A stretch of DNA of 64,000 nt from Tubiluchus corallicola (Eukaryota; Priapulida; Priapulimorpha; Priapulimorphida; Tubiluchidae), in assembly GCA_030141605.1 (NCBI GenBank), contig JAQGDQ010000016.1:1006999-1070998 (forward strand), read 5' to 3'. Under the pieces are notes generated by a model. It did no database searches, was not told the DNA's origin, and saw nothing but the letters and a program-made list of their open reading frames with translations. This document shows positions 34,560 through 62,350 of this stretch, in pieces. The position numbers and the translations under genes are program-made. The stretch's first letter is position 1. Each line of letters begins with the position of its first letter.

Positions 34560-35170
34560 GAGACAATGCAATTTTATTCCAAATCCTCGGAATTAATCAA
34601 TTAATTAGTCAATTAATTAACACAACGAGTTACCACAATTTTTGTTTTGAACCAATGACATCCCTAGATAATAGATAGCTAATCAAGAGAATAATTTGAA
34701 TTTCAACTATTGGGACCTGGAAAGGTGAAATTTCTGTCAAACTAAAATTTGTATATTAAATGGTTCTAATTAATGAACTCATAGTTAACAAATTGCCACA
34801 TTTTTTGAGCAAATAACATTCTACATTGGTTAAACCTGACCTTTAGAATTGTCTTACTAAATTGCAACTCAACTAGATATCAGAACATGAGTTTAGATCA
34901 ATTCAAAATTATTTAATTAAACTTGCTCTAACTGATTGACTAATATTAATATGTTAACTAATCATCATTTAAATCTCAAGTCAAATAGTTCATGAAAACA
35001 TACAATTCAAATCAGTTTGAAATTAATTAATTAATTAAACAGCTAATGAGTTCTACAGATTTTTCTCTTTGAACCAATGACATCCTAGCTAATTATCATG
35101 CTAAGTCTGAACTCAATAGGGTCACGGTAGAATGAAATTTGTATCAATTTAAAATCAATTAATCAATAAC
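34560..35170 (+). repeat. Degenerate tandem array, period about 140 bp
   Basis: The box TTTGAACCAATGACATC near 34650 recurs near 35075, with weaker related units between (around 34780 and 34920), each flanked by AATTAATTAA tracts. This suggests four or so decayed units of about 140 bp. Unit borders are approximate. Confidence 0.5.
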
Positions 35171-35369
35171 AGGTGTGGTAGTTGAATGCTCGGAGTGGAG
35201 CTTCATTTTTGATGCAACCGAATTCCAAAGTTTGGGCAATTTCAAAAATTTTTATCCTGGACTGAGTAAACTGTAAATATGTTCAGCAGCTCCTGTTACT
35301 TCTTCATATTTATTTTATATGTAGAAAAACCAATTAGCAGGCCAGTAATTATAATAGGCTGAGCTAACC

Positions 35370-35744
35370 TCCTCTTCTTTTCGAACGAGTTTTTTAAGTT
35401 CGAATTCGATTCGTATCTAAAATTATAGATTCGAATAATTCAGCATTTCAGCCACACACGTTCTTTATCATGAAAATGTTTGAAACAGTATGCAATTAAA
35501 GCAATTTGGCTGCAGTTTGTGTAAAAAGCTTTTAACAAACTAATGGTGGTTTTACTGCAGAACAAAATCAAATAATATGCATGATCTTTGTAAGGTCACT
35601 TTTTACTAGTGGTTCGAAGACTGCTTCAAAAATCTTTAAAACTCAATTCGAATTCGATTCGGATACGAAATACTGAAATTCGGTTCGAATTCGAAAGTGA
35701 CAAATTCGATTCGAATTCGCTTTCTGGTAGAGAATGCTCACCCT
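35370..35744 (-). mobile_element. MITE-like element with GGGTGAGCATTC ends, copy 2 (inverted)
   Basis: The end at 35730-35744 (gagaatgctcaccctt) is the reverse complement of the left end of the copy at 33747, and the interior has the same TTCGAATTCGAA-rich texture and shared boxes (ATAGATTCGAATAATTCAGCA). The other end, near 35370, is decayed. Length is similar to copy 1. Together the two copies bracket the tandem array at 34560-35170. Confidence 0.65.
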
Positions 35745-36880
35745 TAACACATTGCATAATCACAATGTTGTGGCAGCAATGGTAGCACTCATCCATGAAC
35801 TTCTGGTGCGTACAGTAGTTCTGGATGTCACATGCCAGTCATCAACATGGAACCAATATGGGAAAAGTTAACTCTTTTTTAAGAAAGTGGATAGCTGCAG
35901 AATTTTTGGTGCATTTACTTTAATTCAACACTTATTAAAGCTTAAATGGTTACTTATGAACATGCCTGTGCCCCTGATACGAAATATCTTCAGAGCGAAA
36001 ACCTGCCTTTGCGTCTTGCGTGTTAATTATGTTAACGTTGGGCTTTCAGTTTCATTTCGTGAGTTTTTTTTAATTAATATAGATGTCATTCCTCGCAGTT
36101 AGTAGAGTACGTTTTGCAGCTTTTGTGTTACTTGTAAACTAAAATGTCAAAGTTTCCATTATTTTTCACTTGGGGTTTTTTGGCACAGCAGCAGTTATTT
36201 CAGTAATTGTCAAGAACTACTCAAACTCAGGTCGACGTTATTCAAAGCGTTTAGTTTCGAATTTCGTTACCACCTGTATCAGCTCAAACTGCTACTACAG
36301 TTTGTTGAGACATTGAGTTCTCATCGCCAGTAAACCTGTGGTTCGGTTTGTCCCCTTGCTTTTGACAGCTGAGTGGTTCAGGGTTAGATGCCTATTCATT
36401 GATGACTTGCTGTCACAGCCAATATTACCAGTTATGTCTGTTATGACTATGAAAACACGTGATGAGGAGATTCTAAATTAAAAAACTTGCCTGAATTCTA
36501 TCCTGTGTCCCTCATGCTAGTTGCGACTTCGTAACAAGTGCTCCATCTTCCTACCATTACATGCTGGTATAAAAATTACACTTGCTAGTGTACAATATCC
36601 TCATAATGGATCGAATCATCACAATGCAGAGGGACATTATAGAGAGGGTGAATAAAAATGACATTTTGCATACAGTATTATTTATGTGGCATGTGAGTGT
36701 TAAGGATGCATTAAGCAGTTGCTTATAATAGATTATAGCTAATGTTACCTGTTTTCCCAGAAATTGTAAATTAGTGCTTTGACATTTTTTTGTCTTTCGT
36801 CCCTTCTGTGTGAAAGGCTTAATAAAAAATGTGACTAAAGTTTACTATTTCCCACACACAAAATATTAATTCGTGAAGCA

Positions 36881-42530: not shown

Positions 42531-42974
42531 GACTCGATGACCTTCTAGTCCTTCTCCACACCCTCTCTACACAGTTTACATAGTTTTTTGTAATTCTCTT
42601 ATGAATATAGTATTGGAGATAAACTTTTGAATTCAAAAAAATTGTGCGCATGTGCTCGTATGTGTGTGCGTGCGCGTGCGTGCGTTTGTGGCCCAAAAGC
42701 TCACCTGGCAAAGCATGTGTCCCGAAAGCACGAAGTTCTGGTTGGGCCACACCTACTTCAATCAATTGGCCATTAGGCTAACTGTTTTAAGAATGACTCC
42801 TCTTAATCTCAGTGCTCACGAGTGTGCGTGCATGTTGTGTTGTGTACGTTTGCGTATTCGATTTTGTGTATGTACAAGTAGTACGTACATACCTTAATAT
42901 GTGCATAATGAATTCAAGTGCTTTAAAGTCAAGAAAGTTGGTTAATTGCACTTTAAAATACATGAGTAGGATAG

Positions 42975-43440
42975 ATGTTACACCTCTGGCCGATTTCCCG
43001 GGGGGGTGGGGATTTCCCCGGGGGGTGGGGAAAAACACCCCTAAAAAAGTGCGAAAATCCGGGAAAACCCCTAAAAAAGTGTGAAAACCCGTGTGAAAGT
43101 GCGCACGTGACCGAAATCGACGAAAAAGCGCGAAAAACAAAGAAAAACGAAGAAAAGGCGTGTGAAACGAGGTAAAAATTTTGCAGTTTTTCCCTCCCGC
43201 ATGGCTTCATTTGGATCGAATGACCTTGAACTCTAGGTCACGTGACCAAAGTTCATTGACCCCTGGCCCCTGGATGGCTTCTTTTTTTGACGCCCCATTT
43301 TAAACCGCGTGAAAGCGCGCGAAAGTGTGTGAAAGCGCGTGAAAGCGCGCGAAAGCGTGCGAAAGTGTGTGAAAGTGTGTGAAACGAGGTAAAAAGCGCC
43401 TCAAACGAAGAAAAAGGGAGAAGTGGAGTTCCCGCCGAGG
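42975..43440. repeat. Left-arm terminal repeats: G-rich tip and GTGAAA/GCGCGAAA array
   Basis: After a G-run tip (gggggggtgggg), the motif cccctaaaaaagtg occurs twice. A second array at 43305-43390 has about ten units of GTGAAAGCGC or GTGAAAGTGT. The mirror-image arrays are at 47360-47455 and 47640-47760. Short tandem units like these near the ends of inverted repeats resemble terminal repeats of linear viral genomes. Confidence 0.8.
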
Positions 43441-43686
43441 ACTAATTAGTGCTAATTGGCGCTAATTGGGGAGCCCCTGCCACCCCTCCGCCGCATGCAA
43501 ACGTCCATCCCGGGGGTCGGGGACCCCCCCCTGCAACCCACCCCTCCGTCGCGTGGAATCGTCCACTGCAGGCAATGAGGGAAATCTTTTTCTCGCCACT
43601 CGCGCAGTGCCGGCCCTTTTCCGCGACCACTTCTCTCTCTCTCGGGTGCCCTCCCTTTTCCGCGACCACTTCTCTCGCGGGTTTAG

Positions 43687-43687
<1 letters not shown>

Positions 43688-43734
<47 letters not shown>
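43688..43734. repeat. (GT)n microsatellite in left arm
   Basis: A pure (TG)n run of about 46 bp. The mirror position in the right arm (47035-47062) has only about 26 bp of (CA)n, one of the differences between arms. Confidence 0.9.
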
Positions 43735-43738
<4 letters not shown>

Positions 43739-43882
43739 GGAGATTTATTTCAAATGCCAAAGTTTGATAAATGCATTTTCACAAATCTTTTTTATTGATG
43801 GATTACAGGTGTGGAGATTTATTTCAAACGCCAAAGTTCGATAAATGCATTTTCACAAAACTTTTTTTATTGATGGATTACA
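43735..43882. repeat. 74-bp tandem duplication, left arm only
   Basis: The block starting gtgtggagatttatttcaaa at 43735 is repeated at 43809 with a few substitutions. The right arm has one copy (about 46965-47040). It contains the putative poly(A) signal region of the TBP-like gene. Confidence 0.85.
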
Positions 43883-44182
43883 AAAAATTTTTTTACATTT
43901 TTTATGCAAAATACATACGTGCTAAAACTAGATTATTATTATGGTGACATGATAGTTCTACATTTTACGTTTTTTTTCGCAAATTACACAAATTATGCAA
44001 ATTACAGTAAAACTACACTAATGACGACGAGCGAGTACATGGATTGTCGTCGTCGTCGTCGATGTGATACAGACAAACGTTATTGTTGTTAAAAACGAAT
44101 TCGTTAAATTTACGGAAAACACGAGAGAAATCCTCGACCTTTGTCCCGCCCATCATTATTATGCTTCCGGTGTGAAAAATGT

Positions 44183-44660
44183 TCAGAGTAATTTATGCTC
44201 GCATTTGCAAGTTAGTTTGGGAAATAGTTCCACTTCGTAAAACACTTCTCTAAAAGAATGCGTCGAAGGACGAACGAGTTCTTCGTACAGTGCACCCAGT
44301 TTCAATCTGCAGTGAAGTTTGGCTCTGGCGGTGATGGTGCGAATTGCGATCCCGTCGGCGGGCGTCAGTCCGAGACCTTTCGAGAGTTCTTCGATCGCAT
44401 TGCGTAGTGCTTTTTCCTCCGAAAAACCGTTGGCCACCACGGAGCCGGAGGCAAAAATCATCAGCGTCCCGCCCAGTCGCTTTAGCAGAAGCATTTGCGG
44501 TTTCCTTTCGTAGCGTCTTCCGCCCGTTCTCCGCCGGAGTTCGTTCAGATCGAAGCGCTGCGAGAACGAAGCAGTGGCGACGATGTTGACCGTTTGGACT
44601 GACACGTTAGAACGTAGTTGGCAATCGTTTCGGACGCCCGAACCGCTCTGCCTCGCCCGT
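44183..44660 (-). pseudogene. TBP-like gene, left-arm copy, frameshifted
   Basis: This is the mirror copy of the TBP-like gene at 46230-46831. It keeps both saddle halves up to ELFPKLTCKCE. A 2-nt difference near 44193-44198 relative to the right arm then shifts the frame and gives an early stop at 44183, removing roughly the last 60 residues including the final strands. The upstream end is not marked by an ATG, as in the intact copy. Confidence 0.75.
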
Positions 44661-45057
44661 TGCTCTGCCAACGTATGGCGGGCGGCGGGTGCTCGCTTTC
44701 CAAATCTTCTACGCGTATGACCACGCGATTTTTGGGGAGATGTTTTTTGACGAAATCGTACATCTCTGCTCCCTTGACGTAGGTGATCCTGCCTCTGGTG
44801 GTCTGTCGTAGAATGTTTTCCAATTCTGCGTACTCGATCATTCCCTCCTCCCACGAGATGCCGTGTATGTGTCTGATTAGGTAGTTGTAGGTGGATCGCT
44901 TGTGCTGGGGAACGCGATTCCAGGGGTGGGGCGGTTTGAAGGTGTAGTTGTGATATATGCCGGTCTCTATTTCGCGAATTACCAAATTTTTGACCAGGTA
45001 TTCTTCTTTTCCGCACTGGAAGGCATCTACGGTGAGAACTATGCTCGATTCAGACAT
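44545..45057 (-). CDS. Element protein C, left-arm copy, 170 aa, unknown family
   Basis: It starts MSESSIVLTVDAFQCGKEEY. Its ATG overlaps the stop of the basic protein (ATGTCTGA), a compact arrangement. Notable stretches are NYTFKPPHPWNR, HIHGISWEEGMIEY and RITYVKGAEMYDFVKKHLP. From memory, proteins with the order FKPP, HGxxW and YVKG turn up in invertebrate genomes as uncharacterised, mobile-element-associated proteins; an RNase H-like fold is possible but not shown. The right-arm copy (45789-46301) differs at a few residues (for example ESEHPPP versus ESDHPPP). Confidence 0.6.
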   Translation of the reverse strand: MSESSIVLTVDAFQCGKEEYLVKNLVIREIETGIYHNYTFKPPHPWNRVPQHKRSTYNYLIRHIHGISWEEGMIEYAELENILRQTTRGRITYVKGAEMYDFVKKHLPKNRVVIRVEDLESEHPPPAIRWQSNGRGRAVRASETIANYVLTCQSKRSTSSPLLRSRSASI

Positions 45058-45280
45058 CTGTGACGATGGGGGGTCCTTCTACGCCGTCGGCAACGAGTTT
45101 TCCTTCGATGACGATTTGCTTGTGATTGTTCACAAATTCCAGAGACTTGATTTTTTCGAAGGTGTATTTTTTTATGACCTTGTTGGGGGCACTCTTGCGT
45201 GCGTTGGCGCGCTTGCCGCCCCGCGTCCCCGCTTGTTGTTGTTGCTTGCGAGGAACGGTGGTTAGAGGTTGTTTGAAATC
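45050..45280 (-). CDS. Element protein B, small basic protein, left-arm copy
   Basis: The frame covers DFKQPLTTVPRKQQQQAG, a basic KRANARKSAPNKVIKK stretch and a C-terminal part ending EGKLVADGVEGPPIVTDV. No ATG opens this frame. Immediately upstream is a pyrimidine-rich ttcttctcttgcag, which looks like a 3' splice site at 45281-45282, so this may be a terminal exon. Function unknown; the charge suggests nucleic-acid binding. Confidence 0.5.
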   Translation of the reverse strand, partial: DFKQPLTTVPRKQQQQAGTRGGKRANARKSAPNKVIKKYTFEKIKSLEFVNNHKQIVIEGKLVADGVEGPPIVTDV

Positions 45281-45592
45281 CTGCAAGAGAAGAAGAACAA
45301 TAGTTATAGTATTGTTGTTCGCTAACGACAACTAGGCATTTTTGATGAGCCATTCTTTCAGATTTCTAGGTTTTTTGGGGGCAGTGGGGGTGAGCACCAT
45401 CGGCGGCGATGGAGGGGGCGTCGCGGAAATTACGAGTTTGTCTTCTTCTTTATCATCATCTTTCTCCTCTTCCTCCTCCTCCTCTCGAAAGATGTCCATT
45501 CGTGTCCCTCTCTCGCGTCTGCTTTTACACGGAGGGGCGGAGGTGCCGACGTCCGTGTCTGGCAGACTTCTTTCCGTCCAGTTTGTCCAGTT
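45254..45592. other. Unique centre of the palindrome
   Basis: These 339 bp have no mirror copy. On the minus strand they encode the end of another protein (45332 to about 45510): MDIFR, a run of Glu/Asp/Lys, a proline-rich stretch and PRNLKEWLIKNA before the stop. This acidic tail lies upstream of protein B in the left-arm gene order, as if the left arm retains slightly more of the internal element than the right. Confidence 0.7.
45332..45510 (-). CDS. Acidic C-terminal gene fragment (element protein A)
   Basis: The minus frame begins at an ATG near 45510 with MDIFREEEEEEEKDDDKEED and ends ..PRNLKEWLIKNA at 45332. Upstream of the ATG the frame stays open into the right arm, but there it is antisense to gene B, so the natural N-terminus has probably been lost at the arm junction. 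No family recognised. Confidence 0.4.
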
Positions 45593-45599
45593 CCTCGCA

Positions 45600-45796
45600 A
45601 GCAACAACAACAAGCGGGGACGCGGGGCGGCAAGCGCGCCAACGCACGCAAGAGTGCCCCCAACAAGGTCATAAAAAAATACACCTTCGAAAAAATCAAG
45701 TCTCTGGAATTTGTGAACAATCACAAGCAAATCGTCATCGAAGGAAAACTCGTTGCCGACGGCGTAGAAGGACCCCCCATCGTCACAGATGTCTGA
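45600..45796 (+). pseudogene. Element protein B, right-arm copy, 5'-truncated
   Basis: It matches the left-arm protein B from the RKQQQQAG stretch onwards and ends in the same VTDV. The arm junction at 45592 removes the first dozen residues and the splice-acceptor-like sequence found in the left arm. Its stop overlaps the ATG of protein C at 45789. Confidence 0.55.
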
Positions 45797-46301
45797 ATCG
45801 AGCATAGTTCTCACCGTAGATGCCTTCCAGTGCGGAAAAGAAGAATACCTGGTCAAAAATTTGGTAATTCGCGAAATAGAGACCGGCATATATCACAACT
45901 ACACCTTCAAACCGCCCCACCCCTGGAATCGTGTTCCCCAGCACAAGCGATCCACCTACAACTACCTAATCAGACACATACACGGCATCTCGTGGGAGGA
46001 GGGAATGATCGAGTACGCAGAATTGGAAAACATTCTACGACAGACCACCAGAGGCAGGATCACCTACGTCAAGGGAGCAGAGATGTACGATTTCGTCAAA
46101 AAACATCTCCCCAAAAATCGCGTGGTCATACGCGTAGAGGATCTGGAAAGCGACCACCCGCCGCCCGCCATACGTTGGCAGAGCAACGGACGAGGCAGAG
46201 CGGTTCGGGCGTCCGAAACGATTGCCAACTATGTTCTAACGTGTCAGTCCAAACGGTCAACATCGTCGCCACGGCTTCGTTCTCGCAGCGCTTCGATCTG
46301 A
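45789..46301 (+). CDS. Element protein C, right-arm copy, 170 aa, unknown family
   Basis: Same product as 44545-45057, intact from MSESSIVLTV to the stop at 46301. The ATG overlaps the end of the preceding basic-protein frame. Its 3' end overlaps the start of the TBP-like frame, which lies in the -1 frame relative to it. Frame conservation between two diverged arms suggests it was under selection while the element was active. No host homologue is known to me. Confidence 0.6.
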   Translation: MSESSIVLTVDAFQCGKEEYLVKNLVIREIETGIYHNYTFKPPHPWNRVPQHKRSTYNYLIRHIHGISWEEGMIEYAELENILRQTTRGRITYVKGAEMYDFVKKHLPKNRVVIRVEDLESDHPPPAIRWQSNGRGRAVRASETIANYVLTCQSKRSTSSPRLRSRSASI

Positions 46302-46831
46302 ACGAACTCCGGCGGAGAACGGGCGGAAGACGCTACGAAAGAAAACCGCAAATGCTTCTGCTAAAGCGACTGGGCGGGACGCTGATGATTTTTGCCTCCG
46401 GCTCCGTGGTGGCCAACGGTTTTTCGGAGGAAAAAGTACTACGCAATGCGATCGAAGAACTCTCGAAAGGTCTCGGACTGACGCCCGCCGACGGGATCGC
46501 AATTCGCACCATCACCGCCAGAGCCAAAATTCGCTGCAGATTGAAACTGGGTGCACTGTACGAAGAACTCGTTCGTCCTTCGACGCATTCTTTTAGAGAA
46601 GTGTTTTACGAAGTGGAACTATTTCCCAAACTAACTTGCAAATGCGAGCAAATTACTCTGAACATTTTTCACACCGGAAGCATAATAATGATGGGCGGGA
46701 CAAAGGTCGAGGATTTCTCTCACGTTTTCCGCAAATTTAACGAATTCGTTTTTAACAACAATAACGTTTGTCTGTATCACATCGACGACGACGACGACAA
46801 TCCATGTACTCGCTCGTCGTCATTAGTGTAG
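46230..46831 (+). CDS. TATA-binding-protein-like protein of the element, right-arm copy
   Basis: About 195 residues with the two-repeat TBP layout. Repeat 1 holds VQTVNIVATASF, GGTLMIFASGSVVANGFSEE and an arginine/leucine-rich helix. Repeat 2 holds FREVFYEVELFPKLTCKCE, LNIFHTGSIIMMGGTKVED and VFRKFNEFVF. These parallel the TBP motifs with F..SG.(V)..G(A) and ELFP.L, so the saddle fold is likely. TBP recruits RNA polymerase to promoters; a selfish element carrying its own could direct its transcription, as giant-virus TBPs are thought to do. No ATG opens the domain; the frame lies -1 to gene C and overlaps its end, so initiation could be by splicing, frameshifting or a non-AUG codon. An AATAAA lies at 46980. 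Confidence 0.72.
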
Positions 46832-47339
46832 TTTTACTGTAATTTGCATAATTTGTGTAATTTGCGAAAAAAACGTAAAATGTAGAACTATCACGTCACC
46901 ATAATAATAATAATAATCTAGTTTTAGCACGTATGTATTTTGCATAAAAAAATGTAAAAAAAATTTTTTGTAATCCATCAATAAAAAAGATTTGTGAAAA
47001 TGCATTTATCGAACTTTGGCGTTTGAAATAAATCTCCACACACACACACACACACACACATCTAAACCCGCGAGAGAAGTGGTCGCGGAAAAGGGAGGGC
47101 ACCCGAGAGAGAGAAGTGGTCGCGGAAAAGGGCCGGCACTGCGCGAGTGGGGGGGGGGAAGATTTCCCTCATTGCCTGCAATGGACGATTCCACGTGACG
47201 GAGGGGTGGGTTGCAGGGGGGGTGTCCCCGACCCCCGGGACGGACGTTTGCACGCGGCGGAGGGGTGGCAGGGGCTCGCCAATTAGCGCCAATTAGCACT
47301 AATTAGTCCTCGGCGGGAACTCCACTTCTCCCTTTTTCT

Positions 47340-47770
47340 TCGTTTGAGGCGCTTTTTACCTCGTTTCACACACTTTCACACGCTTTCGCGCACTTTCACA
47401 CACTTTCACGCGCTTTCACACACTTTCACATGCTTTCGCGCGGTTTTGCGCGGTTTAAAATGGGGTGTCAAAAAAAGAAGCCATCCAGGGGTCAATGAAC
47501 TTTGGTCACGTGACCTAGAGTTCAAGGTCATTCGATCCAAATGAAGCCATGCGGGAGGGAAAAACTGCAAAATTTTTACCTCGTTTCACACGCCTTTTCT
47601 TCGTTTTTCTTTGTTTTTCGCGCTTTTTCGTCGATTTCGGTCACGTGCGCACTTTCACACGGGTTTTCACACTTTTTTAGGGGTTTTCGCGGATTTTCGC
47701 ACTTTTTTAGGGGTGTTTTTCCCCACCCCCCCGGGCAGCCAAAGGGGGGGTGGGGAAATCGGCCAGAGGC
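47340..47770. repeat. Right-arm terminal repeats (mirror of left tip)
   Basis: Arrays of TTTCACACACTTTC/TTTCGCGC units occupy 47360-47455. The acttttttaggggttttc units at 47665-47715 and a C/G-run tip (47720-47755) complete the mirror of the left-arm arrays. Unit number and the G-run structure differ between arms. Confidence 0.8.
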
Positions 47771-48247
47771 AAAACATCTATACTACTGAGGCCGAAATAC
47801 CTGGGAAAGTTAAAGTTGTCCAAAAGTCCTGTAAGACCTTCACGACCTGGTAGAACCAGTACTTGACAATAATTATTGAAATTATCTCTTTTACTGCATT
47901 TGTCACAGACTGGCAATGTTTAAAGCATGTGACGCAAATTGTGGCCTTCAACTATAGGTGACAGTAGGAAATTGTAATAAAACCCATCGACCTGTTTTTG
48001 TGACTTGATTATAGCTTTTTAATATAAGGCTTAGTTCTAAAAATCCTAACGTTGATTGGGATAATATGTACAAAACATCCAGGTTACAGAATTCTTGAGA
48101 TTCGAACACCAAACTATCACTGTCCGTTTGTTTTGGATTTTTTTTTGTAAAAAATAAACCAAAACAGGTACACCAGGGGAAAGTAATTTTTGTTATTATA
48201 ATGGTTATTCTCGCGGTGATTTCCAAATAGTTGTTTTCTTTTTATAG

Positions 48248-62350
<14,103 letters not shown>

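Follow-up and report, generated by a model that had tools for sequence, protein, structure and literature searches.

What kind of element leaves two gene-bearing arms face to face in an animal genome, and do the two arms really lie next to each other? The question is raised by a palindrome in the priapulid Tubiluchus corallicola, at positions 42965 to 47787 of the 64,000-nucleotide (nt) stretch analyzed here (the window; scaffold C2, positions 1006999 to 1070998). Taken as a whole, we consider the following answer probable: the arms are termini of a Maverick/Polinton element, the center between them is interior sequence of that element, the palindrome is a form deleted at a microhomology, and the pairing of arms seen in the window is a false attachment of a tail that many scaffolds share.

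Structure of the palindrome

An inverted-arm structure far beyond chance is present in the sequence (Table 1). The core of the arms (44196 to 45256 and 45590 to 46650) is 99% complementary over 1,061 nt, and the outer blocks, which are longer than the core, match at 88 to 100% and are interrupted by indels within simple repeats. The arms differ by base changes and by indels, one of which, 2 nt long, cuts short the left open reading frame (ORF) resembling the TATA-binding protein (TBP); in coding sequence, they differ at 8 synonymous and 6 nonsynonymous codons (5 and 2 in ORF 2, 3 and 4 in the TBP ORF, none in ORF 1). Each arm encodes, from the center outward, a small basic ORF (ORF 1), a 170-amino-acid (aa) ORF (ORF 2), and an ORF with a TBP domain.

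The initial annotation had described inverted arms that are nearly identical yet diverged, each with a compact overlapping gene set and a G+C content unlike that of the host, and this description holds: the ORFs are present in both arms, and G+C per kb is 46 to 50% in the palindrome versus 30 to 42% elsewhere in the window. The predicted center is likewise present, at 333 bp rather than the 339 bp first given. Scans of the window for Rfam families and tRNAs returned no match.

Table 1. Features of the palindrome, in window coordinates
Feature	Position	Strand	Remarks
Left tip, AGTAGG type	42965..42999	+	
Left arm	42965..45256	not assigned	
TBP-fold ORF, left	44183..44602	-	truncated by 2-nt indel
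ORF 2, left, 170 aa	44545..45057	-	no relative found
ORF 1, left, small, basic	45050..45331	-	no in-frame ATG past preceding stop
Center, Maverick interior adjoining arm	45257..45589 (333 bp)		contiguous in C1626, 96.8% over 341 columns
C-terminal piece of ORF, 311 aa in C1626	45332..45497	-	
Right arm	45590..47787	not assigned	same, flank included, in 12/12 other scaffolds compared
Microhomology at palindrome junction, 9 nt	45590..45598		
ORF 1, right, shared part	45590..45796	+	identical to left
ORF 2, right, 170 aa	45789..46301	+	no relative found
TBP-fold ORF, right	46244..46831	+	Pfam TBP E 2.9e-21 on longer open frame 45830-46831
Right tip, AGTAGT type	47753..47787	-	

A longer relative and the identity of the element

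A search of the genome (343.5 Mb in 2,344 contigs) with the arm core gave at least 45 matches (40 of 63 candidates scored). Such a search, for arms attached to longer interiors, had been proposed in the initial annotation, and it led to C1626, which carries an integrase beyond arm and center. From the same arm and center, the sequence of C1626 continues into an interior instead of turning back, and the center there is the C-terminal part of a 311-aa ORF. Past the center come a P-loop ORF, two ORFs of 145 and 276 aa without match, the integrase, two further ORFs (269 and 163 aa), a candidate capsid ORF (434 aa counted from the ATG), an ORF resembling a protease, and, on the opposite strand at the contig end, a C-terminal PolB-like fragment. 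By its sequence, the integrase assignment is secure (rve, E 1.8e-17, above cut-off; chromodomain, E 8.4e-6), and neither domain occurs in the palindrome. From its tip to the end of the contig, C1626 spans at least 12,566 bp, its right end missing (intact vertebrate Mavericks are 12.7 to 24.6 kb); the prospect raised initially, that every copy would prove as short as the palindrome, is not borne out. A further copy, C2033, repeats the arm, center, and parts of the interior of C1626 at 83 to 98% identity and bears a large internal deletion in which most middle genes are lost, while arm, center, and PolB-side sequence are kept.

The tips point the same way: all 22 distinct tips found by pattern start with AGTAG (17 AGTAGG and 5 AGTAGT, the latter being (AGT)2), a count that leaves out C1850, C354/C2254, C387, and C2033, in which the stretches examined hold no tip. 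From the interior of C1626 and the AGTAG tips, we conclude that the arms come from the termini of a Maverick/Polinton and that the palindrome is an internally deleted derivative. That the arms belong to a Maverick/Polinton with a TBP-fold gene is well supported; its family is probably young and multicopy. The original idea of a linear virus-like element whose termini were joined after loss of the interior fits both C1626 and the 9-nt microhomology at the junction.

Several observations weigh against this identification. The P-loop ORF matches FtsK (E 0.0095) and AAA_14 (E 0.0059), and the protease-like ORF matches Peptidase_C5 (E 0.0071), in each case below the curated cut-off. The capsid-candidate ORFs match nothing in Pfam (up to E 0.1), PHROGs, or PDB, the assignment following what we take to be capsid motifs together with gene order, and the capsid-candidate model has a predicted local distance difference test score (pLDDT) of 29.9. 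The PolB-like fragment, a PolB candidate by its motifs and gene order, has no Pfam match up to E 0.1 and only designed proteins as PDB matches (a comparison with viral contigs also gave no match). The copies, found with the arm core rather than the PolB end as query, include no right end of a full element; C1626 itself could be misassembled, though C2033 echoes its arm, center, and parts of its interior. No 6-bp target duplication occurs at the window, C47, or C229, where the ends may not belong together, and no two flanks among the tips examined pair exactly. Finally, all evidence for the palindrome junction comes from a single locus, at the head of a 343-kb tail.

An arm-center-arm layout in several scaffolds could also suggest a stand-alone giant fold-back transposon of ~4.8 kb, the alternative offered at the outset, but those scaffolds are not independent, having one right arm and tail among them. 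Moreover, arm and center run on into Maverick-type genes in C1626, which contradicts the alternative unless this contig is chimeric, and the arms hold no transposase, the sole integrase or transposase seen being that of C1626; this alternative is unsupported, and we judge it very improbable.

One tail in 13 scaffolds

In ten scaffolds, exactly 342,739 bases separate the right-arm core from the scaffold end, and three more start with the mirror image (together C2, C2066, C2200, C2159, C1781, C1850, C2271, C14, C2228, C2185, C628, C457, and C2254). Center and right arm are the same in all 13, and the tail behind them shows no difference in any piece sampled: the 2,894 nt from the center through the right arm into the flank, as well as the outermost 301 nt of the tail, agree with C2 in all 12 others, a mid-tail stretch of 301 nt agrees in the four compared, and 1,201 nt of tail agree in the one compared, so that tail identity is a statement about sampled pieces rather than a base-by-base comparison of all 342,739 bases. 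Seven of the 13 scaffolds reach a full left arm without N, and these seven left arms are all different (of the rest, one begins inside the arm and five, from which no inference was drawn, have N adjoining).

A true duplication would not stop at the same base as the contig each time; we therefore posit a single right arm and tail, reached from many sides. One or two at most of the seven left-arm joins can be genuine, and the arm pairing in the window is probably an assembly join. The union of two gene-bearing arms reported initially stands as far as the letters go, and is not confirmed as a statement about genomic neighbors, the tail being common to 13 scaffolds; the assembly fold-back that had been named as a danger to it is in part what we find, since the window pairing is one of many on a single right arm.

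The palindrome could still be real as assembled, representing the insertion here of a single Maverick that lost its interior and kept two gene-bearing ends: the window contains no N, and one of the 13 joins, or two if diploid, may be true. This is distinctly unlikely, given that the identical right arm and tail occur in twelve other scaffold contexts, that the left flank (TACATG) and right flank (GAGGCC) form no 6-bp duplication, and that the left arm is closest in a tree to the arm of the long copy C1626 (support 0.876). The presence of one 343-kb sequence in 13 scaffolds is also a warning for users of the assembly: palindromes and copy numbers derived from it can be false, and gene and repeat counts are inflated in the tail-bearing scaffolds.

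Origin of the short forms

Where interior meets opposite arm, the two sequences share microhomologies of 9 nt (the junction of window and tail), 8 nt (C197), and 10 nt (C229), the three junctions measured computationally, and of ~9 nt by eye in C47. A second palindrome with a different middle lies at C354, a locus common with C2254: the arm runs to core position 727 and is followed by ~106 nt of interior and then by the inverted arm from core position 594. These short forms would fit an origin in which the interior and the end on the far side were brought together, either by deletion at a microhomology or by template switching, and the palindrome likely formed by microhomology deletion at one locus. 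C47 and C229 lack a 6-bp duplication, and false joins are therefore possible there as well. An older copy (C387, positions 34920 to 35975) is 88% identical and contains stops and frame-breaking indels.

In the scheme that we propose, a deletion would fuse interior sequence next to one end with the other end, in inverted orientation, via 9 nt of common sequence. What remains would be two ends in palindromic arrangement, with the integrase, capsid, protease, ATPase, and PolB genes gone; such a remnant would presumably depend on proteins from full copies. With copies nearly identical at the junction, the assembly would have attached one tail to many left halves, the window displaying one such pairing. 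Defective adenovirus-type fold-back genomes likewise keep their ends, lose the interior, and carry an inverted end copy joined at a microhomology; the palindrome resembles them in all of these respects, whereas the forms described here are genomic insertions known from sequence alone.

Are both ends alike?

Inverted tips occur at the same locus in the window, C47, and C229. In a tree of 23 arms (supports 0.06 to 0.95), the AGTAGG and AGTAGT tip types do not form separate groups, and the mean p-distance is 0.0147 within AGTAGG (n = 105), 0.0106 within AGTAGT (n = 10), and 0.0143 between the types (n = 75). The TBP region is present on all five AGTAGT-tipped arms (in C2005, up to the contig end). 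Such mixing of tip types on gene-bearing arms agrees with either repeats that bear the genes at each end or an exchange of ends; none of the copies found is a full one with both ends.

It is quite possible, if hardly probable, that full copies carry the gene set at one end only and that the inverted gene-bearing second arm arose by fold-back duplication of that end. In three deleted copies (C47, C229, and C197), one side bears the gene set and the other consists of outer arm only; numerous matches to the arm also end close to core positions 590 and 714, breaks that may mark the inner limit of the true repeat or reflect an assembly effect. A gene set confined to one end is harder to square with the five AGTAGT-tipped arms that bear the TBP region and with the intermingling of tip types in the tree.

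Genes of the arms

The TBP domain (PF00352) matches in two stretches, one for each repeat, and 32 PDB sequences match the ORF (best E 5.6e-9; alignment over residues 141 to 304); judging by eye on the PDB alignment, three of the four residues that we take to be the DNA-inserting Phe residues are seemingly kept. The only close relative, P0001 (59% identity over 72%), lies on a 1,855-bp contig; a profile search added two distant TBPs (28% identity), and no relative was found in viral contigs or phages. Going by the fold, the protein most likely aids host RNA polymerase II initiation at promoters of the element. A search for a spliced start formed no donor-acceptor pair, the best donor scoring 1.5, below the cut of 3, with weights that we assume to be appropriate.

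Reading-frame integrity was assessed in 23 arms besides the reference, over their aligned parts (11 of the 23 cover ORF 2 partly). The TBP ORF is without stop or frame-breaking indel in 20 of them (the exceptions being C387, C2033, and the left arm of the window) and ORF 2 in 21 (all but C387 and C2033). The summed ratio of nonsynonymous to synonymous differences (pN/pS) against one reference, a crude measure that ignores shared ancestry, is 0.58 for the TBP ORF and 0.35 for ORF 2. Throughout ORF 2 (45789 to 46301), the TBP frame contains no stop, a property that only 11 of 5,000 synonymous shuffles match, in a procedure that does not preserve dinucleotides at codon borders; this is a hint of overlapping coding.

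ORF 2 had no match at E 0.001 among 52 protein-database candidates, nor any in viral contigs, phages, Pfam, PHROGs, or NCBIfam, and its one PDB match is meaningless. The single-sequence model (mean pLDDT 37.7) has a predicted strand (b) and helix (a) order of b-b-b-a-a-b-a-b, which is only a lead toward an RNase H-like fold. The 311-aa ORF, ORF 1, and the TBP ORF share one frame, split by single TAG and TGA codons in both the window and C1626; a PC4-like match to the 311-aa ORF (E 0.057, below cut-off, without PDB support) is likewise a lead only.

Comparison with known systems

As far as the available text of a survey of vertebrate Mavericks extends (PMC8097293), their commonest ends are (AGT)2 or (AG)3, their terminal inverted repeats measure 46 to 1,447 bp, and they are flanked by 6-bp duplications. 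The present element shares with Mavericks/Polintons, as portrayed in that text, (AGT)2-type tips, a retroviral-type integrase, a G+C content unlike the host's, and, more weakly, ORFs resembling the packaging ATPase, adenovirus-type protease, PolB, and capsid. It departs from the vertebrate elements in that its ends carry a TBP-fold gene and the orphan ORF 2, in its arms of ~2.2 kb, in its left tip of AGTAGG, in the lack of any target duplication found, and in a right end not seen. Polinton-like viruses, in the excerpted description (PMC12220804), also combine an integrase, inverted end repeats, and a strong G+C contrast to the host; those described there are from cryptophytes, in contrast to the animal genome studied here, and no capsid family could be assigned to the present element.

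A TBP-fold protein of their own is also reported, in the passages available, for mirusviruses (PMC10132985), a Chrysochromulina virus (PMC12085832), and Megavirus (PMC11464507), all of them large viruses, whereas the TBP described here has one close relative only. Excerpts of the open-access literature on TBP and polintons assign the TBP to mirusviruses, to elements resembling them, or to giant viruses. The arms might derive from a larger virus with a TBP gene, for example a mirusvirus (TBP genes occur in 59% of mirusvirus genomes, according to the accessible part of PMC10132985) or a giant virus; given that the integrase, the tips, and the order of genes next to the arms are of Maverick type, and that viral contigs hold no TBP relative, this origin is extremely improbable.

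Neighboring features

A trinucleotide satellite with a higher-order unit of 76 nt occupies 48452 to 48836. A small element at 48942 to 49273 has inverted ends CAGTGGTTCCCAAA and flanks AATTAAAG and ACTTAAAG (alike at 7 of 8 positions), by eye resembles a nonautonomous hAT element, and has similar pieces at ~51430 to 51990. Exons of a host RhoGEF/PH-domain gene lie on the + strand at 56431 to 56655 and 59160 to 59531 (RhoGEF, E 9.2e-14; PH, E 5e-6, just under the cut-off) and by themselves point to a eukaryotic, probably animal, genome. One host gene extending across both flanks of the palindrome would exclude a false join; this candidate was dropped, the left exons having matched no useful family.

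Implications

We raise, tentatively and with considerable doubt, the idea of a Maverick lineage whose terminal arms, perhaps at each end, hold a promoter-recognition module belonging to the element, with loss of the interior leaving palindromes that consist of the module only. Read jointly, the module would comprise the divergent TBP, the overlapping orphan ORF 2, and the small basic ORF and 311-aa ORF in the TBP frame. If this is true, copies that lost their interior might go on supplying, or competing for, the transcription of full copies, and a transposon-virus that encodes a general transcription factor in its termini would offer a clue to the control of transcription in Mavericks.

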